64,000 nucleotides of DNA, taken from contig JAJDTP010000004.1 of assembly GCA_022827095.1 (NCBI GenBank), positions 310,001 to 374,000 on the forward strand, written 5' to 3'. The notes beneath the pieces were generated by a model that was not told the DNA's origin, did no database searches, and saw only the letters and a list, made by a program, of their open reading frames with translations. This DNA is from Dehalococcoidia bacterium. Its GTDB lineage: Bacteria; Chloroflexota; Dehalococcoidia; Lucifugimonadales; UBA3495. This document shows, piece after piece, positions 9,868 through 30,423 of this stretch; within the stretch, counting starts at the first letter, position 1; each line of letters opens with the position of its first letter. The translations under genes and the position numbers were made by a program.

Positions 9868-9918
9868 CGGGTGCGCGATCGGCCGCAGCCGATATTTCTG
9901 ACCAGTTGGAGCGCAAAA

Positions 9919-10440
9919 ATGGGACCTACAGAATGGACCATCATCGGCATCGCAGTTGCCATGTTTCTGGCGCTGGGCTCATTGATTAGGTTCGGGAACT
10001 CCGCCAACCAAAACGTGTTAAACGCCGGGATCGCCAATATCAGAACCGAGATCGCTAACGTCAGAACCGAGATCGCAGAGGTTCGGACGGAAGTTGCTGA
10101 CCTGCGTACGGAGCTGAAAGGCGACATCGCAAATGTGCGCACCGAAATCGCGGATCTTCGCACAGAGCTGAAGGGCGACATAGCCGACCTGCGCGCGGAA
10201 CTGAAGGGCGACATGGCCGACCTGCGTGCGGAACTGAAGGGCGACATGGCCAACCTGCGCGCGGAGTTGAAACTCGATTTCCAGGCCAACCGCGCCGAAA
10301 TCATCACCAACCGGCGGATGCTGGGGCGCTTCGCGCTGCATCGCCACGGCGATGACGGCTTGCCATTGGCTCCGCTGACCGACGCCCTGGAGCCCTTGGA
10401 CGGCAACGACCCAGCAGATAACGAAAACGGAAGCGATTAG
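9919..10440 (+). CDS. One-helix membrane protein with long heptad/hendecad coiled coil
   Basis: A 173-residue protein; the ATG at 9919 gives an N-terminal anchor (WTIIGIAVAMFLALGSLI). Residues about 35-125 are built from repeats: several 7-residue units of the form IAxVRTE, then 11-residue units LKGDIADLRAE repeated at least four times with few changes. DNA repeats follow the protein repeats, so the array may expand and contract. The C-terminal 45 residues are acidic and non-repetitive. It resembles bacterial anchored coiled-coil proteins of unknown function. Confidence 0.65.
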   Translation: MGPTEWTIIGIAVAMFLALGSLIRFGNSANQNVLNAGIANIRTEIANVRTEIAEVRTEVADLRTELKGDIANVRTEIADLRTELKGDIADLRAELKGDMADLRAELKGDMANLRAELKLDFQANRAEIITNRRMLGRFALHRHGDDGLPLAPLTDALEPLDGNDPADNENGSD

Positions 10441-10553
10441 CCACCCCGTCAAACCCCCGGCTGACAGCATTCCCAAAACCCGCTACCATATCCGCCAATG
10501 AAACTCGAACCCAGGCCGGCTCACCGGTCCGCCACCAAGGAGGAACCCTTTAC

Positions 10554-11741
10554 ATGATTACCAGATTTGGCAGCCTTTGGGCCGGCAACGTCGACATGGA
10601 CAACCCCGGCTACCAGGGCACCCCCGCCAACGACCGCTGGCTCTCCGATGAGGAACTGGCCGGCGGCGCCATCGAGAAGGCGGAGCAGATGGCCATCGCC
10701 ATGGACCGCCTCGGCTACGACACCTTCTGGGCCGCCGAGCACCACTTCCAGCGCGAGGGGTACGAGTGCATCCCCAACCTGCTGATGCTCTGGGTGCACC
10801 TGGCCCATCTGACCGAGAAGCTCCGGTTCGGCTGTGGTTTCAACATCAACCCCATGTGGAATCCCCTGCGCCTGGCTGAGGACTACGCCACCGCCGACTG
10901 GCTTACCGACGGTCGCGTCCGTTTCGGCGTGGGCCGCGGCTACCATACCCGTGAGGTTGAGGTCTTCGGCTCTCCCATCATGGACCAGAACGCCAACCGC
11001 GAGCTCTTCGAGGAGCAGGTCGAGGTGATGTGGAAGGCGTTCAACCAGCGCAGCTTCTCCCACCACGGCAAGCACTACGACATTCCACCCAACGTGCCCT
11101 ACCGCGGCTATGATCTGGAAGAGATCACCCTGGTTCCCCGGCCCAAGTATGACGTCGAGTGGTGGCAGCCGGTGGTGTCGGCCAGCGACCGGGCCATCAA
11201 CTTCATGGCTCGTTGGGGTATCAAGGGAATCATCGGCGGCGGCGCGGCCACCGGCGGCGCCAGCGACGACGTGATCCACCGCTGGCAGGCCATCCACGCC
11301 GAGCACGGCAAGGACTACAAGCTGGGCGAGGGTCTCGCCGTTGGCTACTCCGTCCAGATCGCCAACTCCGAGAAGGAGGCCATGGACCAGGCTCGCCTGT
11401 GGATGGAAGAGCGGGTCAAGATGTTCGGCCCGCTGGGCTTCATCGCCGGTCTGACCCAGGAGCAACTGGACGCCCTCAACGCCTTCGGCCGCCCGGTTCC
11501 CCAGGGCCTCAAGATGCCCACCATCGAAGAGTCAGTTGCTGCCGGCCAGTACCTCGTCGGCCCGCCCGCCCGCATCACTGAACAGTTGATGGAGATCCAG
11601 GAAAAGTATCCTGGCCTGGAAGAGGTCAACATCGGCATCACCAACATGGGCATGCCCACCTCCGCGTCTATGGAACAGCTGGAATGGTTCGCCAGCGACG
11701 TCATGCCACACTTCAATACCAAGCAGGGCGCGGACAACTAG
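10554..11741 (+). CDS. LLM class flavin-dependent oxidoreductase (bacterial luciferase-like)
   Basis: A 395-residue luciferase-like monooxygenase preceded by AAGGAGGAACCC. The TIM-barrel family features are WAAEHHF near residue 62, the segment HLTEKLRFGCG, then RVRFGVGRGY (the GVGRG signature), EDYATADWLTDGRV upstream of it, and a C-terminal GPPARITEQLMEIQE. Such enzymes use reduced FMN or F420 to oxygenate small organic substrates; the substrate cannot be read from sequence. It follows the epoxide hydrolase and coiled-coil genes in the same direction. Confidence 0.85.
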   Translation: MITRFGSLWAGNVDMDNPGYQGTPANDRWLSDEELAGGAIEKAEQMAIAMDRLGYDTFWAAEHHFQREGYECIPNLLMLWVHLAHLTEKLRFGCGFNINPMWNPLRLAEDYATADWLTDGRVRFGVGRGYHTREVEVFGSPIMDQNANRELFEEQVEVMWKAFNQRSFSHHGKHYDIPPNVPYRGYDLEEITLVPRPKYDVEWWQPVVSASDRAINFMARWGIKGIIGGGAATGGASDDVIHRWQAIHAEHGKDYKLGEGLAVGYSVQIANSEKEAMDQARLWMEERVKMFGPLGFIAGLTQEQLDALNAFGRPVPQGLKMPTIEESVAAGQYLVGPPARITEQLMEIQEKYPGLEEVNIGITNMGMPTSASMEQLEWFASDVMPHFNTKQGADN

Positions 11742-14881: not shown

Positions 14882-16909
14882 CTACACCTCCGTCAGCCAC
14901 CACCGCGCCGTCCCGTCGCCGCCGGCCACAGTGCTCACCTCCATCCCCTCCAGCAGCCATGCCCCGCCGATGCCCTGTGCTGCCGCGCGCAGACCCACCA
15001 CGTCGGACAGTCTGGCCTCTACCCCGGCCCGGGCGTTGGACCCGGCGAACAGCGGCAGCGTTGCCTCAATCTGCGCCCGCCGCCGTGAGCGCTCCGCGAG
15101 CCGAGCCTCCGCACCGGCTTGCGCCGCCGCGTAGTTGTCCGCGTACCGGCAGTGCACCAGGGTCCCGGACGCCGACGCGTCCACTGCCCCGGCCCGGTGC
15201 GCCGTCGTCGATTCAGCGCGCCAGCAGTGGTTGGCCGACAGGCTCAGGGTCTGCATGTAGGCTCGACCCGTGCCGTCGTTGCGGATGCGCAGCATACGTC
15301 CCCGGCCGGCGATGCCCGATGCCGCTTCGGCAAGCAATTCCACCGTGATGTCGCCGGTCACGTCTGTCCCCGTCCCCGCGGCATCGTCCGTCGCCGTGTA
15401 ATCGGTTTGCGCCACCGGCGCTTGCACTCCATCGATTGCCTCCCATGCTTCCGAGGCTGCCAGCGCCAGACGTTCCTTGCCGGCGTCGATGGCCAGCGGC
15501 TCGTTGAGGCTCCAGACCCTTTGCCGACCCTCGTCAACCAGCCTCCGGTAGCGGAACACCACCGCATCCTCCGTTGCCGATGCTCCGTCGCCCCAGCGCA
15601 GCGCCGAGGCGTACGCGCCGCCGTCAGTGGTGTCGGACACGGTGATCTTGGCCAGCGATGCCGGGTCGCGGTGCGAGCGGATCTTCGACCGCCGCGTCTC
15701 GGATTCCAGCCGGACGCGACCGTGCCCGTCCGTGTAAATCAGCCCGTGCTCCTCGCGCTGCAACCGGCGCAGCGCCCGCGCCGCCGATACCTCCCAAACC
15801 GACCGTGCTCCACCGGTGAGCAGGACCCGTCCCGAGTCCAGATCGTGCTCTCCGGGAGCGAGGCCTGACCAGGCGAGAATGGAGGCGGCCACGTCTCCGG
15901 AGCGCATCGGTCCGCCCGGCAGAGCCCGCCGCAACCGCACCGATGACAGCCGTTGCATTACGTCTGCGGCTTCGATCCGGCAGGTTCCGGCCCCGTAGTA
16001 GGGAGAGATCGCGGTCACCTGCCCTCGGAATAACCCGCGGTCCACGCCGAAGCCGCCCCAGCGGTCCGCCGTGTTACGGAAGCTGTGCCACAGCCCGTGC
16101 CGGCCGGAGTCCGGCGGGTCGACAATTCCGTTGGCGGCCAGCAGGGTGCGTCCGACGGGGTCGCTGGTTTCCAGGTTGATGGCTTGCACCCGGACGCCAT
16201 CCGCCGTCTGTTCGATCTCCAGATCGTGCCACGCCCCAGAAACCAGCGGCCCCCCGGACGCCAACCTCGTCACCGTGGAGCCGGCCACCCGTTCCAGCAC
16301 ACTGGAAACGTGGTCAAACCGCAGCCGCAGGCAATCGTTAGCAGCGACGCACCGCAGCACGAACCCGCCTAGCCCGTTGGTCGCCCTCCGGTAGCGCGCC
16401 GTGAGCGTGGCGATGGCGTCGCCGGTGTCCAGCAACGCCACTGCGTCCGCCGGCGGGAACGATCCCACCGTGCCCCGTGCCTCTCCATCCAGGACCGCAA
16501 AGCCGTTTCCGGCGGTGGCGATCACCTCCCAGCGCCCGTCGCCGAACGCCGCCGGCCGCCGGTCCAGGTCCTCTGATCCCACCCCTGAGGTGGCGAAGTC
16601 GTCGTGCAGCCGGCTGGCCCACAACCTGACCTCGCGGCCGGGTCTGACGTTTGATCCCAGCGAGCCGACGACGTTTCCGGGCGTGTATCTGTGGCCCGCG
16701 TTGTTCAGCGTCAACTCCAGCGTGGCCGGCGCGGCAAACTCGGGTATTGGCAAACCCCGGCGTCCCCAGCCCCAGCGCAGGCCGAGGACGTCGTCCGATA
16801 TATCGACGTCATCTGTGCCCCAGATCCCGTCCCCGTCCCAGTTCACCCATGCCTGCCAGCGCAGCTTGGGGGTTGGAGATGGCGCGGCTGTTTCGATGTT
16901 CATGGTCAT
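14882..16909 (-). CDS. Phage-like tail/minor structural protein with LamG-like insert
   Basis: A 675-residue protein preceded by GGAGGT. It begins WQAWVNWDGDGIWGTDDVDIS, then WGWGRRGLPIPEFAAPATLE and LTLNNAGHRYTPGN. These are typical of phage tail proteins that start a baseplate/hub module. Residues about 115-290 look like a concanavalin A-type jellyroll (GAWHDLEIEQTADGVRVQAIN region). A long middle part resembles tail-spike/hub domains, and the end has LLEGMEVSTVAGG. It is the last gene of the minus-strand structural cassette. Exact tail role is unresolved. Confidence 0.6.
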   Translation of the reverse strand: MTMNIETAAPSPTPKLRWQAWVNWDGDGIWGTDDVDISDDVLGLRWGWGRRGLPIPEFAAPATLELTLNNAGHRYTPGNVVGSLGSNVRPGREVRLWASRLHDDFATSGVGSEDLDRRPAAFGDGRWEVIATAGNGFAVLDGEARGTVGSFPPADAVALLDTGDAIATLTARYRRATNGLGGFVLRCVAANDCLRLRFDHVSSVLERVAGSTVTRLASGGPLVSGAWHDLEIEQTADGVRVQAINLETSDPVGRTLLAANGIVDPPDSGRHGLWHSFRNTADRWGGFGVDRGLFRGQVTAISPYYGAGTCRIEAADVMQRLSSVRLRRALPGGPMRSGDVAASILAWSGLAPGEHDLDSGRVLLTGGARSVWEVSAARALRRLQREEHGLIYTDGHGRVRLESETRRSKIRSHRDPASLAKITVSDTTDGGAYASALRWGDGASATEDAVVFRYRRLVDEGRQRVWSLNEPLAIDAGKERLALAASEAWEAIDGVQAPVAQTDYTATDDAAGTGTDVTGDITVELLAEAASGIAGRGRMLRIRNDGTGRAYMQTLSLSANHCWRAESTTAHRAGAVDASASGTLVHCRYADNYAAAQAGAEARLAERSRRRAQIEATLPLFAGSNARAGVEARLSDVVGLRAAAQGIGGAWLLEGMEVSTVAGGDGTARWWLTEV

Positions 16910-16984
16910 GCGCGTTTTTGGACCTCCAAAAGAGCGGTCGGTCCTTTTGATTGCACGGTGGTTTGGATCTCACGTGTCCCCAGT

Positions 16985-17076
16985 TGTCATTGCGAGCGCA
17001 GCGCGGCAACCTCGTGATGGCAGTGGGTCTCTTGCATCAACGAGATCGCCACGTCGCTGCGCTCCTCGCGATGACA
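16985..17076. repeat. MITE-like palindromic element (TGTCATTGCGAG family), full copy
   Basis: Left arm TGTCATTGCGAGCGCAGCGC and right arm reading, on the opposite strand, TGTCATCGCGAGGAGCGCAG enclose about 30 bases. It sits between the phage tail gene and the next plus-strand gene. A near-identical layout is at 27630-27721. Confidence 0.85.
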
Positions 17077-17171
17077 AACCGGGTACGCGAGAGGGTTTGG
17101 ATATTTCGCCGGGGGATTGGCGTAAACGGACGAAAACCATTAGCATCAGGGCTGCGCAAGGAGCGAAGAGC

Positions 17172-17840
17172 ATGGCCAGGCACTGGATCAGCTACAGCGT
17201 CGACCCGGACCCCCGACGGCGCCGGCGCCGGGGCTGGCAGTGGCGATGGCCGTGGAACTGGGGCCGCGACCCTCGCTACGGCCGCCCCCAGGTGGTCCGG
17301 ATCCAGCCAGCCCGTCAGCGTGTCCGTGATGACGATGCGCGACGCAAGATCTGGCCATGGCTGCTGTTGCTCCTTTTGTTGCTCCTGTTCGCCCTGCTCT
17401 TGGGCTGGCTCCTGCTGGACGAACCGGAAGAGTCCGACCGCGCCGAACGGACCGGCGGCGGAAGCCAGCCCGGCACGGCCGCTGATCTCTCCCTTGGCAG
17501 TGTCGCTCCCCCTGTCGCGCCTCCCGTCGAGTCCGCCCTGGTCCTGTCTCGCGCCGATGACGGCGGCGCCATGGTCACCGTCCCCGAACGGCCCTCTCTC
17601 AATCTTGATGGCGATACCAGGATCATGGACCTTGGCGATAATTCCTGCCATGCCCAGCGTTACGTCCTGATGACCGATGGCAAGATGATTCCCATCGAGG
17701 ACCTCGACGAGGCAACGGTTGACGCGCTGGCCCGGTCCGACGTACCCATCGACACCGTGGCCCTCAGCCCGAACGTCGACACAAGCGCCCTCCAGTCCAT
17801 CGCCTCCCGCACCGGCGGCACCTTCACCAAAATGGATTAA
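17172..17840 (+). CDS. Single-pass membrane protein with basic N-terminus and VWA-like tail
   Basis: A 222-residue protein; the ATG at 17172 is used because upstream in-frame sequence lies in the repeat and antisense to the tail gene. Residues about 15-55 are Arg/Trp-rich (RRRRRRGWQWRWPWNWGRD). A very long leucine helix follows (WPWLLLLLLLLLFALLLGWL), then an Asp/Gly/Pro linker. The C-terminal 60 residues (VALSPNVDTSALQSIASRTG then GTFTKMD) resemble the end of a von Willebrand A domain, but the MIDAS-bearing first part is absent. Function unknown. It lies inside the phage cassette on the opposite strand. Confidence 0.6.
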   Translation: MARHWISYSVDPDPRRRRRRGWQWRWPWNWGRDPRYGRPQVVRIQPARQRVRDDDARRKIWPWLLLLLLLLLFALLLGWLLLDEPEESDRAERTGGGSQPGTAADLSLGSVAPPVAPPVESALVLSRADDGGAMVTVPERPSLNLDGDTRIMDLGDNSCHAQRYVLMTDGKMIPIEDLDEATVDALARSDVPIDTVALSPNVDTSALQSIASRTGGTFTKMD

Positions 17841-17897
17841 ATCCCCGTCCCGGGCGTGTCTGATAGGAACGCCCGTCACAGTCCGGAGCACGTGCCA

Positions 17898-18620
17898 ATG
17901 ATTGCCTGTACCACCGCCCAGGCCGCTCAGGCTTTCTTCGACGCTGCCGACCGGCATTTCGAGGACGAGGAGCCGCTGCTGGCCTACGACAACCTGTGGA
18001 ACGCCGCCTCCCACGCCCTGACCGCCGTGGCTGATGCGCGGGGCTGGCCCACGGACGACCCGCAAGACCTGAGAACCGCCGCCGAACGCCTGGCCAAGGA
18101 GGCCAGCGACCACCACCTGCGCCACCAGTTCGCCGTGGCCCAGCAGTTCCGCGCCAGGTTCAACAACGGCTTCGTGGAGCGCCACCAACTGGCCGATTAC
18201 TGCCGCCTGATGCGGGAGTTCGTCGACCGCATGCTCGCCCTGCTGGATGCCTACGGGCAGGTCGTTCCCCAGTCTCCCCGTGAACATTCCCGGGCGGCGG
18301 ACGCATCGTTGCAATCCGCTGAGGCCGAGTTTGCGGCGGGTAAAATCACTGTCGGCTCGGACCGGCTGTGGCAGGCCTCTGTCCATGCGGTTACCGCCGT
18401 GGCCCGCCAGCGCGGTTGGCCCAGCGACGGCCACGCGGACGTGAAAGTCGCCGCTGACCGCCTCGCCGCCGGAGACACCGCCATCATCGCCGGCTTCTTC
18501 GCCGCCCAGCAGTTTCACGCCAACGCCACCCACGATTTCATGGAACCGGACGACTTCAGCCGCGGCCTTCCCCTGGCCCGGGATTTCGTACACCGGATGC
18601 TCTCCATGCTTGAGAACTGA
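17898..18620 (+). CDS. Internally duplicated helical protein (HEPN/PaREP1-like repeats)
   Basis: About 240 residues from the ATG at 17898 (GGAG ten bases upstream); a GTG at 17856 is an alternative. It consists of two related copies of about 110 residues. Each copy has an AEAEF/AADRHF helix, a LWxAxxHAxTAVAxxRGWP helix and then FxxAQQFxA. The LWNAASHALTAVA...RGWP pattern is like PaREP1/HEPN helical bundles, though no HEPN RxxxxH motif is seen in a convincing position. Two copies in one chain suggest a pseudo-dimer. It is likely cotranscribed with the membrane gene before it. Confidence 0.6.
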   Translation: MIACTTAQAAQAFFDAADRHFEDEEPLLAYDNLWNAASHALTAVADARGWPTDDPQDLRTAAERLAKEASDHHLRHQFAVAQQFRARFNNGFVERHQLADYCRLMREFVDRMLALLDAYGQVVPQSPREHSRAADASLQSAEAEFAAGKITVGSDRLWQASVHAVTAVARQRGWPSDGHADVKVAADRLAAGDTAIIAGFFAAQQFHANATHDFMEPDDFSRGLPLARDFVHRMLSMLEN

Positions 18621-18703
18621 CACTGGATCGTCCTTCCTCCGTTGCCGCCGCCGGCCCGTTGTGCCATAATCCTGCGCATCGGCCCGCCAACGGAGTATCG
18701 GCA

Positions 18704-19015
18704 ATGGTTGCCTCCGAGCTATACATCCTCTACGGCTTTCTCGCATTTATCTCCCTGTTGCTGGTTACGCTTATCGGCATCCCGTTGCGACAGTCCCGTG
18801 ACATTGGCGAGTTGAAAAGCATGATCCCCAGGATTGGACGCCTTGAAGACAGGATTGGACGCCTCGAAGAGCAGATGGGGACCGTTCGCGAACAACTGGC
18901 CGAGGTTCGGGGCTTGGTGGTGGCCATGCACGACCGGATGGACTTCCTCATGCGCCACCACCATGACGACGCCGGCCGCGTCGTGATAACCCCCGAAGAA
19001 GTCGCTACCAACTGA
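18704..19015 (+). CDS. Small one-helix membrane protein with coiled coil
   Basis: A 103-residue protein from the ATG at 18704 (an ATG at 18659 would add 15 residues). One N-terminal helix (LYILYGFLAFISLLLVTLIGI) is followed by a coiled coil with the repeat IGRLEDRIGRLEEQMGTVRE and a short polar tail. The layout is the same as its neighbour at 19116 and the gene at 9919. Function unknown. Confidence 0.55.
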   Translation: MVASELYILYGFLAFISLLLVTLIGIPLRQSRDIGELKSMIPRIGRLEDRIGRLEEQMGTVREQLAEVRGLVVAMHDRMDFLMRHHHDDAGRVVITPEEVATN

Positions 19016-19115
19016 GCGAGCTATTAGCGCCTTGTAGTTCCACACTGTAGGGCCGGCCCGAGTGGGTTTAGCCTGCCAATTCTCAACCATTTCTTTCAAC
19101 CATGCAGAGTCGATG

Positions 19116-19388
19116 ATGATTTCTCCCGCAGAATTCGCCCTTTTTGGCGCACTCCTTTTCGTCCTGGTCGTTTCGGCAGTGATTCTGGCGCTGCTGTGCT
19201 GGCGAGCTTTTGTCAATCCCAATCTTCTGGGTCGCGGGCTTCCCGAGCGCATCAACCATCAAGAGACGCGGATTACTCATCTCGAGAAGCGTGTCGCCGA
19301 CCAGGAAGCGGAGCTGGAAGTTCTGCGCCGGCAGGTGGACGAATTGAGCGAGCGGGTGTCCAACTTGTTCCGCTGGGAAACGCAGTGA
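19116..19388 (+). CDS. Small one-helix membrane protein with coiled coil
   Basis: About 90 residues from the ATG at 19116; in-frame starts exist at 19113 and 19062. An N-terminal hydrophobic segment (FALFGALLFVLVVSAVILALL) is followed by a heptad coiled coil (RITHLEKRVADQEAELEVLR). It closely parallels the preceding gene in layout but not in residues. Its end meets the convergent phage tail gene with only a few bases between. Confidence 0.5.
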   Translation: MISPAEFALFGALLFVLVVSAVILALLCWRAFVNPNLLGRGLPERINHQETRITHLEKRVADQEAELEVLRRQVDELSERVSNLFRWETQ

Positions 19389-19395
19389 TGTGTCG

Positions 19396-19821
19396 TCACC
19401 ACGTCCCCAGCGCTGCCGGCCCGTCCTGCCGGAACCTCGCTTCGAACCGCACCGGCTCGCCGGACGCGCTGCTGATCCGGTAGGACAGGCACACGAACCG
19501 GCCCGACACCCGACGCCGGCCCGGCCCATTGCCCGCCGGCCCGTACTCCACCGCCACTGCCATCCCGACGATGCCCGACAGCACCGCGTCCGGGCCGATG
19601 TCCGGCGTGTCGTCCCACCGGCCCGACAGGGTGAACTCCTGGGCGGTATCCGTTCCCGCCGCGGTCCGCGGCGTTGCGTCGTTCACGCCCGCGGCATCCC
19701 GCCCGGCCAGCTCCCGACCCAGCGGCCCGACCCGTTCCACCCATGGCGACAGGTCCCGCATCACCCCGCCGGCGTCCTCCACCGCGACGTAGCTGCGCCC
19801 CGCGCTCGAATATCCCGTCAT
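19396..19821 (-). CDS. Phage-like tail component
   Basis: A 141-residue protein starting MTGYSSAGRSYVAVEDAGGV. Beta-rich composition and the phrases LSPWVERVGPLGRELAGRDA and EFTLSGRWDDTPDIGPDAVL match small phage tail-tube-like proteins seen after head-tail connectors. It starts 3 bases after the connector gene's stop. The identity as tail protein rests mainly on position and on fold-like composition. Confidence 0.5.
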   Translation of the reverse strand: MTGYSSAGRSYVAVEDAGGVMRDLSPWVERVGPLGRELAGRDAAGVNDATPRTAAGTDTAQEFTLSGRWDDTPDIGPDAVLSGIVGMAVAVEYGPAGNGPGRRRVSGRFVCLSYRISSASGEPVRFEARFRQDGPAALGTW

Positions 19822-19823
19822 GC

Positions 19824-20678
19824 TCACACCCCCAGGACGGCAACGCGCCGGCGATACGGTCCCAGCAGCGCGCGAACCGCCGGGGATATTCCACACGCAT
19901 CTCCCCGACCATCGCCCTCTGGCAGCGTGAAAGGCGCCCCAAGCCGCTCCCGCCACCAGGCGGCGGCCTGCTGCAGGCACGCTTCGGTCACCGCGGACGG
20001 ATAGCGGTACACCGATACCCCCGAGCCCACGGCGTGCGTCGCCGGCGTGGCGCCGTTGACCCCGCGCTGCACCGCGAGCGTGATCGTCCCCTGCCCGTCG
20101 TCGGACACTGCCGTCACGTACATCTGCTCGTCGCCGATCCGCACCGTGTGGCCGGCCGACAACGCAACCGACGGTCCGTCGTCGGATGCGGCCACCGTGA
20201 TCGCATTGTCGGCCGGCGCCGCCTCCGCGCCTGACACCTGCAGCCCCGCGTCCTCCCGCACGTCGCCGTAGCCCCACGCGCCGGCGACGATCACCCCGCC
20301 CCGGCTCAGCGGGAACCGGCGCCCGCCGGCCGTGGCCACGATGCGCGTGTACGGCCGCCCGCCCGCTTCCGTGGGCGCGGCGTTCAACGGGTAGGCCAGC
20401 CAGTCGCCGGAGTTCCAGCCGACCCACCGACCCGTCGCGCCCTCGCGCACCCGCACCTCGGCGGCGGACACCAGGTCGCTCACGGCCAGGACCACCCGCC
20501 CCGTCCCGTCGAACCTGCGCTCTCCCGGCGTGACGAAAAAGTGTCGGTCGCAGTACCCGTCGATCCACCGTGACGCCGTTTCCAGCATCCCCAGCAACCG
20601 TTCGTCGTGTCCGTCGTCCGGCGTGTTCAGAAACGCCGGCGATTTCAGCGTCGTCAGGTCACCGTAAGCGTTGGGCAT
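19824..20678 (-). CDS. Phage head-tail connector protein (gp6-like)
   Basis: A 284-residue protein. The N-terminus AYGDLTTLKSPAFLNTPDDG then LLGMLETASRWIDGYCDRHF is characteristic of gp6-type head-tail connectors, in which a helix of this pattern packs on the portal side. The C-terminal segment EACLQQAAAWWRERLGAPF also fits. A Gly/Ala-rich beta domain is inserted between them (about residues 60-240), longer than in the minimal family. It follows the capsid gene after a repeat-bearing gap. Confidence 0.6.
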   Translation of the reverse strand: MPNAYGDLTTLKSPAFLNTPDDGHDERLLGMLETASRWIDGYCDRHFFVTPGERRFDGTGRVVLAVSDLVSAAEVRVREGATGRWVGWNSGDWLAYPLNAAPTEAGGRPYTRIVATAGGRRFPLSRGGVIVAGAWGYGDVREDAGLQVSGAEAAPADNAITVAASDDGPSVALSAGHTVRIGDEQMYVTAVSDDGQGTITLAVQRGVNGATPATHAVGSGVSVYRYPSAVTEACLQQAAAWWRERLGAPFTLPEGDGRGDACGISPAVRALLGPYRRRVAVLGV

Positions 20679-20703
20679 GGTTTATCTCCGCATGCATCCA
20701 GCC

Positions 20704-20767
20704 GTCATTCCGGCCTTGAGCCGGAATCCAGAAGGTGCTCTGGACTCCGGCTTTCGCCGGAGTGACG
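20704..20767. repeat. Palindromic repeat, GTCATTCCGGC family
   Basis: GTCATTCCGGC...GCCGGAATCCAG followed by CTGGACTCCGGC...GCCGGAGTGAC forms two nested hairpins. It occupies the gap between capsid and connector genes. A related element is at 53787-53830. Confidence 0.8.
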
Positions 20768-20785
20768 ACTTGGAGGATAGGCGCG

Positions 20786-22138
20786 CTACACCGTGATGTT
20801 GTACTGCAGCGCCGTGTGCGTCGCCGACGCCCGCGTCCCCGTCCGTTCCATGAAGGCCAGGCGCATACTCACCACCATGATGTTTTGCCGCTTCTGGATG
20901 TCCCGCATCGTCTCGATCATCAGCTCCCGCCGGAACCCCAGGCGCCACTGCGTCCGGTTCACCGCCAGCAGCCGGCCCTTGGTGTTGCTGGTTCCGGCAT
21001 CCGTAACCTTGCCGTCGGCGTCCGACTGCGCCATCTGCTCCGACACGATGACCGGGATGCCGTCCACCTGGGCCAGCTGCCCGTTGAGCAGCGTCGCCTG
21101 CGGGCCCAGCTTGTCCAGGGTGCGGAACTCGCTGATGGCCAGCGACTTGATGTAGGTGCCCACGTCCGCGATGTAGGCCAGCTCCGAAGGCCGCACCCCG
21201 TACTTGCCCAGCAGACCCCGCGCCTCGTTGAACATGTCCGCGCTGGGCGCGGCCCCGTGGTCGTTAGCCTGCGCCGCGTTGTCCACCAGCGGCAGGTGCA
21301 GCAGCCCGTCGAACCCGACCAGCCAGTGCGCCTTTCCTGCCGTGGACGCCGCGATGGTCGCCCCGTCGGCGTTGATGTTGTTCTGCAGCGTCGTGTCCGC
21401 GTTCAGCAGCACGTCGTCGATCACCTCCACGGCGTTGCGGACCAGCGTGCTACGCACCTCCGCCGCCATGGCGATCACCGCGTCTTCCTCCAGCGTCAGC
21501 GACCACGGAACCTCGGCCACCAACTCGTATGCCGTCAGCGTCTGCCGGCCGGTGGTCAGCGCCGTCTCCGTGGTCGCTGTGTTCTCCGTTCCCGGATACC
21601 AGGACACGTCGCCCAGTTGCAGCGGGATCTCGAAGGGATTGGTCGGCATGTCCACCCGGGTGAACAGGCCGGCCACCAGGGTATCCACGTTGATATCTGC
21701 CCACAGCGCGGCCGCCTCGCCGGTGGCGACGAGTTCATCGCCCGCGCCGGCGGTGGTGCTGTCCATGGCCGCCTTCAGGTTGGCCTGCCAGTCCTCCAGC
21801 GCCCGCGGATTCACGTCGCCCGGCTCGCGCTGCTGGGCGGCCAGCACGCTGCGCACGCAGGCCAGGTCCAGCGCGTCCATTCCCTGGTACTTGCCGAAGG
21901 GCACCCGCGGCCGGTCGCCGCCGCGTTCTCCGCCAGGACCCGCTCCGGAAAAACGGGCCAGCATGGCCTGCTTTTCACCGACCCGCTGCTTCTCGGTCAG
22001 CTCGCCGACGGCCCGGCTGAGCCTTTCGAGCTCTTCCCGCAACGGCGGCAGGTCCGCGTCCATCCGCTGCCGGTAGAACTCGCGCACCTCCGCAACCTCG
22101 TTCTTGATCGTCTCCAGTTCCCATGTCGAAAGCGTCAT
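20786..22138 (-). CDS. Phage major capsid protein (HK97-fold)
   Basis: About 450 residues from the ATG at 22138. The first about 70 residues are a coiled-coil scaffold-like region (TWELETIKNEVAEVREFYRQ). The body has the HK97 features: TRVDMPTNPFEIPLQLGD, then EVPWSLTLEEDAVIAMAAEV, a long helix, and a C-terminal region with GRLLAVNRTQWRLGFRREL, VSMRLAFMERTGT. Upstream is a prohead protease gene, the usual HK97 order. The scaffold part is probably cleaved by that protease in a working phage. Confidence 0.8.
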   Translation of the reverse strand: MTLSTWELETIKNEVAEVREFYRQRMDADLPPLREELERLSRAVGELTEKQRVGEKQAMLARFSGAGPGGERGGDRPRVPFGKYQGMDALDLACVRSVLAAQQREPGDVNPRALEDWQANLKAAMDSTTAGAGDELVATGEAAALWADINVDTLVAGLFTRVDMPTNPFEIPLQLGDVSWYPGTENTATTETALTTGRQTLTAYELVAEVPWSLTLEEDAVIAMAAEVRSTLVRNAVEVIDDVLLNADTTLQNNINADGATIAASTAGKAHWLVGFDGLLHLPLVDNAAQANDHGAAPSADMFNEARGLLGKYGVRPSELAYIADVGTYIKSLAISEFRTLDKLGPQATLLNGQLAQVDGIPVIVSEQMAQSDADGKVTDAGTSNTKGRLLAVNRTQWRLGFRRELMIETMRDIQKRQNIMVVSMRLAFMERTGTRASATHTALQYNITV

Positions 22139-22195
22139 ACCTTGCAAACTCCTCAAAAATCCTGTCCATCCTGTCCATCGATGTAAAATTCGTCC

Positions 22196-23008
22196 CTACG
22201 CCCGCAGCTCCCGCAGCAGCCCCACCACCTCGTCCAGAGAGCGGCCGGCCTCCGCCGGCTCCCGTTGCGATGCGATGGCCCCTTCCGCCAGCAGCGCCCC
22301 GCCGTTGGCCGGTACCGGCACCGCGCTGATCTCCAGCAACTCCTGCTCCAGGAACCGGATGCCCAGGAACGCGCCGTTCACCGGGTCGCGGCGCTCCTCG
22401 AAGCGCAGCGGCCGGAAGCCGACGGACACGCCCCGCTGGTAGCCCTGGCGGTACAGCCGCTCCACCTGGCCGGCAAACTCCGTGGGCGCGAACTCCAACC
22501 GCGCCCGCAGAGCCCGTCCGTCGCTCCACACCGCCTCCGCTCGTCCGATGGCCGGCTCGCCGTAGTCGTGGGCCCACAGCACCACCGGGTTGTCCCGGTA
22601 GGCGTCCAGCCGCCACCCCTCCGGCGCGACGGTATCGCCGTGCCGGTCCACCTCCCCCGTGGACGCCACGAACACCAGCGGCCCGGCCCCGGCCTTGTCG
22701 CTGCCATTACCGTCCCAAAACCGCTCATCCTGAGCGCGCCGAACCACCCAGGGATTGTCATTCCACGGAGTGTCATTGCGAGCGTAGCGTGGCAATCCCG
22801 TCGCCGCAGCCATTCCCGCACCCCGCTCATCCTGAGCCTGTCGAAGGACCCGCTTGCACACCACCGGCGCCTCGGCGACGCCCCGGCGGTACGCATCCAG
22901 CGCGGCCAGCAATGCCGCCCGTCCGTCGGGCAGACCCCGCGGCCCGCGCCAGCCGGCCGTGCGACCCGACCGCCGCGCCCCCGCGTCCATCATCGTCCTC
23001 ACCATCAT
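22196..23008 (-). CDS. HK97-family prohead protease carrying in-frame repeat elements
   Basis: About 270 residues from the ATG at 23008, preferred because GGCGGGAGGTTCGG precedes it and a terminator-like hairpin overlaps the longer frame. The protease core is GPLVFVASTGEVDRHGDTVA, then LWAHDY with the catalytic-type histidine, GVSVGFRP and LEISAVPVPAN, all matching HK97 proheads. Between an N-terminal helical part and this core, residues about 53-96 (22721-22850) are encoded by three short dispersed repeats and read RQAQDERGAGMAAATGLPRY, ending in ARND. The host frame is kept. Confidence 0.75.
   Translation of the reverse strand: MMVRTMMDAGARRSGRTAGWRGPRGLPDGRAALLAALDAYRRGVAEAPVVCKRVLRQAQDERGAGMAAATGLPRYARNDTPWNDNPWVVRRAQDERFWDGNGSDKAGAGPLVFVASTGEVDRHGDTVAPEGWRLDAYRDNPVVLWAHDYGEPAIGRAEAVWSDGRALRARLEFAPTEFAGQVERLYRQGYQRGVSVGFRPLRFEERRDPVNGAFLGIRFLEQELLEISAVPVPANGGALLAEGAIASQREPAEAGRSLDEVVGLLRELRA
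22721..22850. repeat. Cluster of three dispersed repeat elements inside the prohead protease gene
   Basis: CCGCTCATCCTGAGC at 22721, TGTCATTGCGAGCGTAGCGT at 22771 and CCGCTCATCCTGAGC at 22823 match intergenic repeats elsewhere (27597, 27630, 28635, 29783, 35023). Total insert length keeps the protein frame open. Confidence 0.8.
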
Positions 23009-23063
23009 CCGAACCTCCCGCCGGCGCAACCCGACGCCGGGGCAGTCCACCACCCGCTCACGC

Positions 23064-23108
23064 AAAAAGCCGGTGGACCCGACCCGCCATCAGGTCAGTC
23101 CACCGGCT
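23064..23108 (-). terminator. Rho-independent terminator-like hairpin upstream of the phage cassette
   Basis: Read on the minus strand, AGCCGGTGGAC, a 19-base loop and GTCCACCGGCT are followed by TTTTTGCG. It probably ends an upstream (now missing) transcript, or attenuates transcription into the cassette. Confidence 0.6.
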
Positions 23109-23227: not shown

Positions 23228-23675
23228 TTGCCCAGCGTAACTACGAAAGACAGCCCTCGAATTGGGGAACTCGGCTCGGAGACAGGGGAGCTTGACCGCG
23301 TAACTGGAGAGCTCAAGCCGGATGCAGGGGAGCTCGGGCCGGAAGTTCGGGAGTTCGCCCCCCGAAGTTGGGGAGCTCGGGCCGGAAGTTCGGGAGCTCT
23401 CCGCCCATCTCCAAGAGAGGATTGACCAACTTGGTCAATATCCACGCCGTGAGCGCGTACAAGTTATCATACACGAGATATGTTCACAGGAAAGATGGAC
23501 AACTTCTTCGGAGATTGCAAAATGCCTCAATTTCCAACAGGGGAACCTGACGAGAAATTATCTTTCTCCAATGGTAGAAAGTGGCCTGCTTGAACGACGC
23601 TTCCCGGAAAACCTCAATCATCCTCACCAAGCCTATCGCGCCGTTACGCCCCAGCTTACGCTTCCGCTGACGTAG
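23228..23675 (+). pseudogene. Remnant of an AlbA-type ATP-binding regulator: GEL repeats and winged helix, frameshifted
   Basis: From 23228 the frame reads PRIGELGSETGELDRVTGEL and continues with further GEL-type units. At 23358-23363 a run of six Cs breaks the frame; with five Cs it would continue as APEVGELGPEVREL into LGQYPRRERVQVIIHEICSQ and then RRFPENLNHPHQAYRAV. This GEL-repeat plus winged helix is the usual C-terminus of AlbA_2-domain proteins annotated as RecG-like or transcriptional regulators. The N-terminal AlbA/ATP-binding part is missing, so the gene is a remnant even if the C-run is a sequencing error. Confidence 0.7.
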
Positions 23676-24834: not shown

Positions 24835-27561
24835 TCACCCCGCCCGCTCCAGGTTCAGCGCGAGCAGCCGCTCCAGTATTTCCCCGTCCGCCAGGTCCGC
24901 CGGCCAGCCGTAGGCGGCGGACACCGCCGCATCCAGCCGGGCGTGGACGTTGTCCAGCCACGTCGGACGCTGGTTGTACAGGTTGGTCAGCGTCCGACGG
25001 CGCAGTTCCGTCGCGCTGACCCCTTCCGGATTCAGCCAGCCCTCCCGCAGCGAGTTCAACTCCGCCGCGATTGCGCCGATGGCCTCCCGCTGCTCCTCGG
25101 TGGGACGCGGAAACGGGAACGTCTCAAAGCACGTTGAAACGATATAACGGGGCCTGTCCTCAAGTTGAGTCCCCATTGCCAACGTCCAAACTATGTGCGG
25201 TCTGCTATGCAAAATTCCTAGCATGTAGTCTTCCGAGCTCGCGATTGCAACCACCGAGTTAGATGGCAAGCCGTCCACAGAAAGCCATGCGAAGAAGCGA
25301 TGTTTCGCTGTAACTGATGTTCCTATGTATCGTGGTAGTGGAGCCAGTGCGCCACGCATTTCAGTTGCAAGGTAACCGTGCAGCCACCAATTTGTCGCTC
25401 TCCATTGCATCTTGTTACGGATTCTCTGGGGCTTTACGTTGGCCCTAATGTATTCAAAAGGCTCTTCATATAGTGCGGCCTCTTCTTCAGTACGATTAGT
25501 ACCGAAATCAATGATCCACATATCGCGTGCACGCTGCGTTATATCGACGCCATTCACCCACCTCCGTAACACGTCCGAGTTGGGTCGCCCATGTGGATTG
25601 GGCTGGTTCAACATGTCTGTGGCGACTGTTGCAGATATGTCGAAATCCCCGACCTTTCCAACCCCTTGAAACGCTAGGCTTTGGTTTTCCGACAACCGCT
25701 TTGCAGTAGTAAGGTCGAATCCGATAGTCAAATCAGGATTGATCGCTGGGACGTTGTTGCCATCAAGCGACCGACTAACTTCAGTACCATCGTCAAAGCA
25801 AATGATCGAGATGTGAACTGCTGCACCCTCCAGTACCCAATCCTTATCCGATATCGCCGTGAATATGTCCCCGGTCTCTTTGATCCGTGTCAACACCGGC
25901 CGGTTCGACTGAAACCGTATCGCCTGGGTTGCCAGTAGACCTGCTCGCTTGGTAGCGTCGGCTTCTATCTGCGCCCGCGCCTTCTCCAACCAATAACAGC
26001 AAAGGTCGCTGGAGTTCGGTATCCGGTTGCCATAGAGCCCATACACCGCATCCACGTACTCATCGCCCAGCGACTCCCGGAAAGGGACGTGACCCAAAAA
26101 CGGCGGGTTCCCCACGATGAACTCCGCCGCCGGCCACTCCGGTTCCGCCGGATGCTCCGGATCCGACAGGTCCAGTATCGCGTCCGTCTGCCGTATCGTG
26201 TCCAGCGGCGTCAGGATCGGCCGCTGCGTGTACGCGAACCCGTTGGCCTGGTGCCACTGGATGTAGCCGATCCACAGCGCCGTCCGCGCCAGTTCCGCCG
26301 CGTAGTGGTTGGTCTCCAGCCCCAGCATCTGGTCCGGCTGCACCCGCGGCGTCAGCCCCAGCCACCCCTGCGCCGCCGCGTAGTCGATGACCTCCTTCTC
26401 CAAATCCAGCAGCGACCGCAGCGCGATGTACAGAAAATTCCCGCTCCCGCACGCCGGATCCATCACCCGCACCGACGCCAGCCGCTCCCGAAACCCCTCC
26501 AGCCGCGCCCGCGCCGGGGGATTGTCATCCCCATCCAGCAACCCCTCAATCTCCGCCCGCGCCGTCTCCCACTCCCGCCGCAGCGGCGTCATCACCACCG
26601 GCTCCACCACCAGTTCAATGTCCTCCGCGCCGGTGTAATGGGCTCCCGTCTGCGCCCGCTTCGATGCGTCCAAAGCCCGCTCGAACAGCGTCCCGAATAT
26701 CGACGGCTCGATGTCCCGCCAGTTCCGCTCGCACGCCTCGCCCAGCCGCTGCAACGCCGTGGCGCTCAGCTCGACAGTATCGACCATGTTGAACAGGTCG
26801 CCGTTGAAGTGCGCGATCTCGTCGGCCCCCGAGAACCCGCCCGTGGCCATCTGCGCGAACAGGCTGCGCACCGCCCGGTCAAAGGTCGCCGGATTGCGAT
26901 AGTGCTGCGCCACGATGCGCGTGAACAGCCCTTCCGGCAGCAGCCCCGCGTCCTCGGCGTACAGGCAGAACACCAGTTGATTCAGATACCGCGCCAAGCG
27001 TTCCGGGTCCTCATTTCGCGCCTCCATGTCCACCACGATGGACTGGAACACCGCCGCCGTCTCCCGGGTCACCGCGTCCACCGACCGCAGCCGCTCCCGG
27101 AACCGGTGCGGCGCGAAGAACACGTCCCGCAGCAGTTCCAGCCGCTCGGCCTGCTCGAACTCCCCGATGCCGACGTCGTACCGCGCCGTCTCCATCCCCG
27201 GGAAGTTGGTCTGGATGCGTATCGTCTCGAAGGACGACACGATCAGCAGCGGCGGCGTTTTCAGGTGCACCTGGTAGCGCAATAGCTGGTCGAAGGCCCC
27301 GTCCAGCTGTGCGTCCCGCCCCTTGAACTCCCAGCCGAAATGCTCCTCGTAATAGGCGTCGGCGAACCCGCCCGGCACCGCTTTCTCGAAGGTGAACGCC
27401 TCGGGATCGCCGTACCCCGCCGGCGTCGCGTGACCCACCAGCCCGCACAGGTCGTTGAAAAACGACTGCGCCCCCTGCCGCTCGCCGAAGCCGGCCTCCC
27501 GCCAGCGACCCACAAACTCCCGCGGCGAAATCGTCGGCATCATCGGCGTCATGGCACACAT
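24835..27561 (-). CDS. MmeI-like type IIG/IIL restriction-modification enzyme
   Basis: A 908-residue single-chain enzyme; starts at 27561 or 27552 are both possible. The N-terminal nuclease shows D68, nine residues, then E78-F-K80 (in GFADAYYEEHFGWEFKGRD), exactly the D-X9-EXK spacing reported for MmeI. A helical linker follows. The methyltransferase has MDPACGSGNFLYIALRSL (motif I) and FIVGNPPFLG (motif IV NPPF) for adenine N6 methylation. The specificity domain (about residues 620-850) is AT-richer than the rest, as is usual. All catalytic parts are present, so a working enzyme is plausible. The recognition site cannot be read from sequence. Confidence 0.8.
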   Translation of the reverse strand: MCAMTPMMPTISPREFVGRWREAGFGERQGAQSFFNDLCGLVGHATPAGYGDPEAFTFEKAVPGGFADAYYEEHFGWEFKGRDAQLDGAFDQLLRYQVHLKTPPLLIVSSFETIRIQTNFPGMETARYDVGIGEFEQAERLELLRDVFFAPHRFRERLRSVDAVTRETAAVFQSIVVDMEARNEDPERLARYLNQLVFCLYAEDAGLLPEGLFTRIVAQHYRNPATFDRAVRSLFAQMATGGFSGADEIAHFNGDLFNMVDTVELSATALQRLGEACERNWRDIEPSIFGTLFERALDASKRAQTGAHYTGAEDIELVVEPVVMTPLRREWETARAEIEGLLDGDDNPPARARLEGFRERLASVRVMDPACGSGNFLYIALRSLLDLEKEVIDYAAAQGWLGLTPRVQPDQMLGLETNHYAAELARTALWIGYIQWHQANGFAYTQRPILTPLDTIRQTDAILDLSDPEHPAEPEWPAAEFIVGNPPFLGHVPFRESLGDEYVDAVYGLYGNRIPNSSDLCCYWLEKARAQIEADATKRAGLLATQAIRFQSNRPVLTRIKETGDIFTAISDKDWVLEGAAVHISIICFDDGTEVSRSLDGNNVPAINPDLTIGFDLTTAKRLSENQSLAFQGVGKVGDFDISATVATDMLNQPNPHGRPNSDVLRRWVNGVDITQRARDMWIIDFGTNRTEEEAALYEEPFEYIRANVKPQRIRNKMQWRATNWWLHGYLATEMRGALAPLPRYIGTSVTAKHRFFAWLSVDGLPSNSVVAIASSEDYMLGILHSRPHIVWTLAMGTQLEDRPRYIVSTCFETFPFPRPTEEQREAIGAIAAELNSLREGWLNPEGVSATELRRRTLTNLYNQRPTWLDNVHARLDAAVSAAYGWPADLADGEILERLLALNLERAG

Positions 27562-27629
27562 CCCGCCGCCCAGAATAGCACGCGCAGGCTACCCGCTCAT
27601 CCTGAGCTCGTCGAAGGATCATCCCCACC

Positions 27630-27721
27630 TGTCATTGCGAGCGAAGCGCGGCAATCCCGGCGGGGTTAGGCCGGCTCTTCCGGCAACGAGATCGCCACTT
27701 CGCTAACTCCTCGCGATGACA
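27630..27721. repeat. MITE-like palindromic element (TGTCATTGCGAG family), full copy
   Basis: Left arm TGTCATTGCGAGCGAAGCGC and right arm ending CTCCTCGCGATGACA. Just before it, at 27597-27620, is a CTCATCCTGAGCTCGTCGAA element. Together they fill most of the gap between the restriction gene and the HEPN module. Confidence 0.85.
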
Positions 27722-28731: not shown

Positions 28732-30423
28732 CTACCCCCTCAGCACAATGTGCCGCCGCCATTCCTCGGACGTTTCGGCGAAGTCCTCCCGGTAGTGCGC
28801 GCCGCGGCTCTCCCGCCGCTGCAGCGCCGCCTCGACTATCAGCCGCGCCACCACCAGCATGTTCCGCAGCTCGAACTCCTCCGTAGTCTCCGGTTGGGGT
28901 CCGCCGGCATAAAACTGCCGCTGCCACAAGTTCAGTATCCGCGCCGTGAGCAGCAGCCGCGTCCCGTTGCGCGCGATGCCCACGTTGCGCCACATCAGGT
29001 CCTGCAGGTTCTCCTTGCCCCGCTCCGGCACCGTGGCGCACACCATGGCCCGTTCCGTCAGGCCGATGCGAAGGTTGGCGTCGTCATCATCCGTCCCTTC
29101 GTACTCCGGCGCGTTTCCCAGCGTCGCTTCCACCAGCCGCCGCGAGAACACCAGCGTGTCCAGCAGCGAGTTGCTGGCCAGCCGGTTGGCGCCGTGCACG
29201 GCCGCGCACGTCGCCTCGCCGCAGGCGTACAGACCGGCGATGTTGGTCCGCCCCCAGGTGTCGATGCGCACGCCGCCCATCATGTAGTGGGCCGCCGGCG
29301 CCACCGGAATCGGCTCCTGCGTGATGTCCAGCCCGTACCGCCGGCACTCGGCGTAGATGGTAGGGAACCGGCTGGACACCGTGGCCGCCGGCAGATGCGA
29401 TATGTCCAGCATCGCCGGCCGGCCGTCGGCCCGCTCCATCTCCGCCGCAATGGCTCGCGACACCACGTCCCGTGGCGCTAGGTCGGCCATCGGGTGATGC
29501 GACGCCATGAATGGTTCCCCGTCCGCGTTCCGCAGTACCGCGCCCTCGCCGCGCATCGCCTCCGACAGCAGGAACGTGGGCGCGCCTTCGAGCCAAAGCG
29601 CCGTGGGATGGAACTGGTAGAACTCCATGTCCATCACCTCCGCCCCGGCCAGGTACGCCAGCGCCACGCCGTCCCCGGTCGCCACCTCCGGGTTCGTCGT
29701 GTAGCGATACAACCGTCCCGCTCCCCCGGTGCTCACCACCACCACGCCGCCGGGTATGACCCGCCGCGTGCCGCCCCTGCCGCTGTCATCGCGAGGCGCT
29801 CCCTCCACGTTGTCATTGCGAGGCGCTTGCGCCGTGGGAATCCCGTCATCGCCATCCTCCCGCTCATGGTGAGCTTGTCGAACCATGCTGCCCATGAGCT
29901 CCACGCCCGTCACCGTCCCGTCCTCCACACATATCCGCACCGCGTGGGTGTACTCCAGCACCGTGATGCGCTCCGACGCCCGCACCCGGTCCGCCAGCGT
30001 GTCCTCGATGTGCATACCGGTGGCGTCGCCCCCGGCGTGCAGGATGCGCGGCATGCTGTGTGCCCCCTCCCGCCCCAGCGCAATCTGCCCGTGGATGGTG
30101 TCGAAAGGAACGCCCCACCGGATCAGCCCGGCAATGCTGTCCGGTCCCTGGCCCGTGAGCACGCCCACCGCCTCGGGGTCGCACAGGCCGGCGCCGGCGT
30201 ACAGCGTATCCCGCTCGTGCAGCGTCGCCGAATCCCCCGGCCCAATGGCCGCCGCGATGCCGCCCTGGGCGTAGCGGCTGTTGCAGTCGTCGATGCGCCC
30301 CTTGGTTACCACCAGCACGCTGCCGTGCTCCGCCGCCAGCAGCGCCGTGTTCAGCCCGGCGATTCCGCTGCCAATGATGATGTAGTCGTGCCGCGCCGTG
30401 CCCAAATCAGCAGTTGCCATCAC
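28732..30423 (-). CDS. nadB: L-aspartate oxidase carrying an in-frame repeat insert
   Basis: A 563-residue FAD enzyme that makes iminoaspartate for NAD synthesis. The FAD-binding start is IIIGSGIAGLNTALLAAEHG, followed by DDCNSRYAQGGIAAAIG and HAGGDATGMHI, all diagnostic. MGGVRIDTWGRTNIAGLYAC and GANRLASNSLLDTLVFSRR follow. Residues about 179-214 are encoded by three dispersed repeats (29783-29887), inserted between VTGVELMGS and GGVVVVSTGGAGRLY, where the normal protein has a short loop. The frame is intact, so the enzyme may tolerate the insert. No nadA or nadC is adjacent. Confidence 0.88.
   Translation of the reverse strand: MMATADLGTARHDYIIIGSGIAGLNTALLAAEHGSVLVVTKGRIDDCNSRYAQGGIAAAIGPGDSATLHERDTLYAGAGLCDPEAVGVLTGQGPDSIAGLIRWGVPFDTIHGQIALGREGAHSMPRILHAGGDATGMHIEDTLADRVRASERITVLEYTHAVRICVEDGTVTGVELMGSMVRQAHHEREDGDDGIPTAQAPRNDNVEGAPRDDSGRGGTRRVIPGGVVVVSTGGAGRLYRYTTNPEVATGDGVALAYLAGAEVMDMEFYQFHPTALWLEGAPTFLLSEAMRGEGAVLRNADGEPFMASHHPMADLAPRDVVSRAIAAEMERADGRPAMLDISHLPAATVSSRFPTIYAECRRYGLDITQEPIPVAPAAHYMMGGVRIDTWGRTNIAGLYACGEATCAAVHGANRLASNSLLDTLVFSRRLVEATLGNAPEYEGTDDDDANLRIGLTERAMVCATVPERGKENLQDLMWRNVGIARNGTRLLLTARILNLWQRQFYAGGPQPETTEEFELRNMLVVARLIVEAALQRRESRGAHYREDFAETSEEWRRHIVLRG
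29783..29887. repeat. Three dispersed repeats inside nadB
   Basis: TGTCATCGCGAGGCGC (29784), TGTCATTGCGAGGCGCTTGC (29811) and CCGCTCATGGTGAGC (29860) match the intergenic families at 27597-27721. Their sum does not break the nadB frame. Confidence 0.8.

Follow-up and report, generated by a model that had tools for sequence, protein, structure and literature searches.

The window, a stretch of 64,000 nucleotides from contig JAJDTP010000004.1 of a Dehalococcoidia bacterium (genome G000), carries at 14882-23008 a cluster of prohead protease, major capsid, head-tail adaptor and tail protein genes, whose order was shared among relatives (Table 1). Named records put the group in the SAR202 cluster/Dehalococcoidia of Chloroflexota. 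The protease scored 36.2 bits against Peptidase_S78 of Pfam (cut-off 21) and was annotated by PHROGs as a head maturation protease; its score against NCBIfam TIGR01543 was 37 bits, under the cut-off of 59. His147 and Ser195, which we take to be the catalytic residues of the prohead protease, were invariant across 43 protease sequences. Both the profile score and the presence of His and Ser place the protein in Peptidase_S78. A search by sequence for a solved structure of the protease found none. The top Foldseek match was T4 gp21 (E 4.6e-4), and herpesvirus proteases scored weakly. The open frame on the minus strand spans 22196-23065, and the ATG at 23008 is most likely the start, giving 270 aa rather than 289. 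Eleven of 12 congeners have a GGAGG/GAGG-type motif before the N-terminal block; in G012 one precedes a later start.

Table 1. Features of the window discussed in the text (position 1 is the first letter of the window).
Feature	Position	Strand	Remarks
Prohead (head maturation) serine protease gene	22196..23008	-	270 aa; ATG at 23006-23008
Shine-Dalgarno motif GGGAGG	23014..23019	-	Ahead of the protease start codon
Conserved N-terminal block, residues 29-52	22853..22924	-	Helix and start of first strand; pLDDT ~93 in residues 31-50
Hypervariable linker with repeats, residues 54-110	22679..22849	-	Ortholog alignment; pLDDT < 50 for residues 60-101
Repeat A (RVLRQAQDERG)	22823..22851	-	Intact core also between genes at 27598-27618
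Repeat B (TGLPRYARNDT)	22769..22803	-	TGTC-tagged; commonest family
Repeat A' (VVRRAQDERF), eroded A copy	22721..22749	-	Intact counterpart in the G001 ortholog
Catalytic core, residues 111-239	22292..22678	-	Invariant H147 and S195; dN/dS; AlphaFold
HK97-type major capsid gene	20786..22156	-	Same cluster as the protease; family and PHROG matches
Head-tail adaptor gene	19824..20678	-	Same cluster; PHROG match
Intergenic A+B pair	27595..27660	+	Same families as in the protease gene; repeat scan
L-aspartate oxidase gene (nadB)	28732..30423	-	Second gene with in-frame repeats; TIGR00551, 520.3 bits (cut-off 452.75)
Repeat cluster in nadB loop (MVRQAHHEREDGDDGIPTAQAPRNDNVEGAPRDDS)	29785..29884	-	A-type and B-type, in frame

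The first-pass annotation had described three short genomic repeats lying in frame within the protease gene, and the gene, the frame, the coordinates and the peptide (RQAQDERGAGMAAATGLPRY) were all as claimed. It was also right that the repeats separate the N-terminal part from the catalytic part with the frame intact; the N-terminal part is a conserved helix and strand. The cores of repeat A (22828-22848) and repeat B (22772-22797) showed no mismatches with their family cores, and the core of A' (22726-22746) showed three with that of the A family. About 43 residues had been said to be added; this stands as the length of the repeat stretch and fails as a net gain, since the linker measures 57 aa against 33 aa in G011, the closest congener with a repeat-free linker, and the G011 linker is unrelated in sequence. 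The protease thus offers no clean empty site, the repeat-free linkers (G011, G003, G007, G012 and G010) being unrelated in sequence. In the AlphaFold model, built with 43 sequences, the helix at residues 27-41, the strand at 50-55 and the core were confident, and pLDDT fell below 50 across the repeat-coded residues 60-101; low pLDDT between confident flanks therefore puts the insert in a predicted disordered loop that joins two predicted strands.

The repeats belong to families dispersed through the genome. The 171-nt linker, used as a query, matched 40 further places in its own genome, and the 14-mer from the core of repeat B (TGTCATTGCGAGCG) had 118 exact copies there (reversed control, 0) and was found in 18 of 101 genomes sampled from the phylum, our own included. 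The strict A pattern occurred at 7 places in the genome, the protease copy among them. In 464 kb of the genome the strict patterns matched 43 times, in 31 clusters, and once when the sequence was reversed; in 1,074 kb from 12 congeners there were 165 matches in 97 clusters, compared with 2 in the reversed controls. The congener stretches were partly picked around the protease and give no unbiased repeat rate. Repeats were frequent around the protease-capsid cluster. A tandem 21/43-nt repeat of the GGAAGTTCGGGAGCTCG type (window 23276-23403) overlaps a short open frame upstream of the protease.

B begins with TGTC and a third family, C, a canonical CGTC element also present in this genome, begins with CGTC; these two families have the (C/T)GTC tag at one end. 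Of the three families, only C gave an 8-bp stem, closed by a GAAA loop (z -4.1). A forms a 5-bp hairpin (z about -1), the stem of B is broken (z 0.05) and the eroded A' reached z -2.8. Because A and B have weak hairpins without an 8-9-bp stem, they are REP-like and not textbook REPs. A structured RNA element is not supported, as the whole insert folded no more stably than expected on one strand or the other (z -0.92 and -0.15).

Among the 31 strict clusters in 464 kb, 5 had open frames of 50 codons or more on both sides. Two of these, in the protease and in nadB, were accepted as intragenic; the other three (window 16986-17075, L072 16152 and L073 4372) looked on visual inspection like gene ends or antisense frames. 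A relaxed scan gave single weak matches in genes named by eye as ABC transporter, recombinase, acyl-CoA ligase and P450, which were dismissed as chance.

The protease was found in 23 of the 40 genomes searched (our own included) and in 12 of 14 within the genus; the two genus genomes without a match, G005 and G013, are 85% and 87% complete. In an alignment of 20 orthologs, with three weaker matches (L029-L031) excluded, the N-terminal block ending in APxVCKW and the core beginning with LxFVASTG were conserved, and the linker between them ranged from 14 to 97 aa. When each linker was compared by BLAST with 20-464 kb of its own genome, repeats were found in six of the 12 same-genus linkers, and a whole-genome search added a seventh, that of G008, which had no match in 57 kb and 22 in the whole genome (one of them itself, 21 further places). 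The lengths of the repeat-bearing linkers were 57 aa in G000, 97 in G001, 88 in G004, 71 in G009, 48 in G006, 64 in G002 and 58 in G008. Counted as repeat-free were G011 (33 aa), G003 (46), G012 (24), G010 (30) and G007 (23), with one short hit in G003 and two in G007 (E 0.004-0.006) excluded from the count; absence is a weak result for G007, G010 and G012, and likewise outside the genus, where in each case at most 20 kb was compared. The A-type repeat does occur elsewhere in the genomes of G010 and G012.

The repeat-bearing linkers differ in their contents. The A-B-A' layout is common to G000 and G001, and G009 has B and then an A-type element at the matching place. The G001 linker contains a duplicated 99-bp unit, and the A-type element of G009 continues into a tandem array of 21-bp units (HHERVKD). 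In its C-terminal linker the G009 protease (L013) also has STGQAPTLSQMERG, which resembles a further repeat read through in frame. Few positions separate the B copy of G000 from that of G009 despite the divergence of the genes, and G001 has another B variant there, a pattern that could reflect shared ancestry combined with gene conversion, or else insertion more than once. In the capsid tree, in which one node around G004 was supported at only 0.31, the groups (G009, G001, G004, G000) and (G002, G006, G008) each include a repeat-free member, G011 and G010, respectively. The simplest reading of this distribution would be a gain of repeats in each of the two groups and a later loss in G011 and G010. 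The first-pass reading would have been contradicted by homologues with the same residues in genomes that lack the repeats; the similar residues that we found were in G001 and G009, which have the repeats elsewhere.

None of the seven repeat-bearing linkers has a stop in the coding frame. In dinucleotide shuffles, single repeat-bearing linkers stayed open in 14-54% of cases, and the product over the seven was 1.9e-4; this is a modest argument, the linkers having come from genes found intact. The repeat elements themselves are nearly stop-free in most frames.

The protein on both sides of the insert is under selection. Core dN/dS between G000 and its four closest congeners was 0.026 (G001), 0.058 (G004), 0.041 (G011) and 0.085 (G009), and the 129-residue core showed no indels across 12 congeners. 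For the 24-residue N-terminal block the pooled dN/dS was 0.19 in clade 1 and 0.175 in clade 2. The low values in the block and the core therefore indicate that both flanks of the insert are selected as protein in one frame, and the first-pass alternative of a prophage gene released from selection is not supported. In the capsid gene dN/dS was 0.08-0.12 among G000, G001, G004 and G011. Synonymous divergence from G001, G004 and G011 was 0.12-0.22 in the protease core, 0.33-0.39 in the capsid gene and 0.40-0.48 in nadB; recombination or another constraint is a possible cause of the lower value in the core.

Such repeats occur in other genes as well. The nadB loop was compared in six genomes (for four further congeners the DNA compared contained no ortholog): G000, G004 and G002 have differing repeat sets, G001 has a remnant, and in G011 and G007 the loop is short and repeat-free. 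Outside the loop the dN/dS of nadB was 0.07-0.12 in four genomes. Furthermore, B-type repeats stand in frame in an MmeI-like restriction-modification gene of G001 (L036 15731-15822), and the MmeI-like gene of G000 (24835-27561) has at the matching place a short stretch without repeats. In-frame entry of repeats is thus a general event that does not depend on a dying prophage and that tracks flexible sites. Entry into genes and tolerance there, as proposed in the first-pass annotation, is supported by 7 of 12 congener linkers, NadB and the MmeI-like gene of G001.

We consider it very probable that REP-like repeats entered the protease at a flexible linker, that this site is tolerant and that the repeats are neutral passengers there. 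Interspersed REP-like repeats would have been inserted where the N-terminal helix/strand is joined to the catalytic domain; in-frame insertions would have survived, and purifying selection on both flanks would have removed the others. Translation would run through the linker, and the insert would be harmless to the enzyme. Ortholog comparison suggests the copying of repeats into genes and also what may have followed it, namely erosion, tandem duplication (the 99-bp unit of G001, the 21-bp units of G009) and in-frame deletion (G011, G010).

Three other explanations were weighed against this one. If the cluster were a decaying prophage, the repeats would sit in the protease because nothing is selected any more. 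The cluster genes do belong to phage families, none of the window proteins tested was identified as an integrase, portal or terminase, and the abundance of repeats around the cluster would fit as well. However, the intact frame, the low dN/dS of core and capsid, the indel-free core, the presence of protease and portal across the genus and the same type of insertion in the housekeeping gene nadB make decay hardly credible. The repeats might instead form a 5' leader or intergenic spacer, with translation beginning downstream and the upstream open frame incidental. G012 and G022 indeed lack the N-terminal block and begin near the core, in-frame GTG and ATG codons occur within the linker, and in G004 and G009 the linker holds a TTG with a purine-rich upstream motif. 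Such a leader is nevertheless unlikely, as the N-terminal block is conserved in 11 of 12 congeners and family-wide, is preceded by a Shine-Dalgarno motif and ATG, and is modelled with high confidence as a helix and strand, and the linker of G000 has no start codon with an SD-like motif.

The repeats may also have been co-opted, the length or charge of the repeat-coded linker being useful (as a spacer, a self-cleavage site or for capsid binding) and kept by selection. This would agree with the retention of the repeats in frame in two clades, with the greater length of repeat-bearing linkers in the genus (48-97 aa vs 23-46 aa without repeats) and with the A-B-A' layout common to G000 and G001 and partly to G009. 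However, linker sequence and length are free to change, G011 and G010 are repeat-free inside repeat-bearing clades, and NadB and the MmeI-like gene show the same thing with no protease-specific use needed, so co-option seems improbable too. The entry of passenger repeats at a tolerant linker is the reading that we retain.

What the cluster itself represents is a separate question. The first-pass annotation spoke of a prophage; the phage gene families agree with this, but prophage status is doubtful, given that 12 of 14 genus genomes have the protease, that all 14 have the portal, at a locus apart, and that gene order is shared. The HK97 portal gene of our genome is single-copy and lies on another contig (L262, G000:C21:34501-54500, 9421-10656, minus strand), where it adjoins a 512-aa ORF, which had no Pfam or NCBIfam match, and bacterial genes. 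The portal family (PF04860) gave a single match in 13 of the 14 genus genomes and two in G006, and the distance between portal and protease in the single-contig genomes G003, G007 and G011 was about 15, 355 and 125 kb. The genome gave no match to the terminase family PF03354. IMG/VR contigs L176-L187 carry close relatives of the cluster, the linker of L176 and L177 being that of the G014 ortholog, and these contigs may be pieces of bacterial chromosome filed as viral.

The separate portal locus and the shared gene order suggest a domesticated, dispersed capsid system, and the capsid gene set may have been kept vertically rather than as a prophage. Gene transfer agents have single-copy capsid genes retained vertically throughout a taxon, and they package and transfer host DNA; vertical retention may apply to the portal and protease here, given their spread across the genus and the shared gene order. 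We tentatively propose, as one possibility on gene content and distribution, that the cluster and the separate portal could form a domesticated, vertically inherited, gene-transfer-agent-like system of SAR202-related Chloroflexota, in which the linker would be a preferred site of repeat gain, expansion and loss, with the enzyme kept under strong selection. A search of one open-access library for SAR202 with gene transfer agents found a single paper, with the mention only in a reference. The conserved capsid gene set in these bacteria merits a study of its own.

For the repeats, the same library had no listing of in-frame repeats in SAR202-related Chloroflexota, searches with the motif sequences turned up papers on other subjects only, and our results extend in-frame REP-like insertion to this less studied group. 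One linker in 12 congeners, with differing repeat sets, tandem expansions and losses, makes a rich comparative series, which lets one ask where proteins tolerate repeats and how repeats turn over.

The protease resembles the HK97-family prohead proteases of Peptidase_S78 and T4 gp21 in family, fold and the invariant His and Ser, and differs from them in an extra N-terminal helix and strand and in the linker, of 14-97 aa across the orthologs. Among repeats, those described as CGTC-tagged REPs are high-copy, (C/T)GTC-tagged and mostly intergenic, with some in frame in ORFs; such in-frame entry is described for many REP-bearing species and includes clusters of 43-82 codons (Di Nocera et al., 2013, PMC3733652). 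The passages considered give CGTC repeats for five phyla, Chloroflexi not among them, and GTAG repeats for Chloroflexi, and they present the CGTC type as having no known transposase. CGTC REPs have an 8-9-bp stem beginning with AT and a 4-5-nt loop, whereas A and B have no such stem. REP/REPIN elements mobilised by RAYT have this Y1 tyrosine transposase in the genome, whereas Y1_Tnp (PF01797) was not found in our assembly, which is 97.65% complete (controls matched in 5/14). The intragenic REP pattern is present here in each of its parts: a genome-wide repeat, in frame, in a gene under selection and absent from some orthologs. In Rickettsia, RPEs are short dispersed repeats found in frame and tolerated in conserved protein genes, reported in 19 reading frames, and a guanylate kinase with an RPE insert was active (PMC2229807). 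RPEs are described there as palindromes of 105-146 bp, whereas the elements in these Chloroflexota are of about 25-35 bp and come in combinations; they resemble RPEs in what happens and, having no long palindrome, are not members of that family. The insertion in the protease is the phenomenon known from Rickettsia RPEs and intragenic REPs, here in SAR202-related Chloroflexota.
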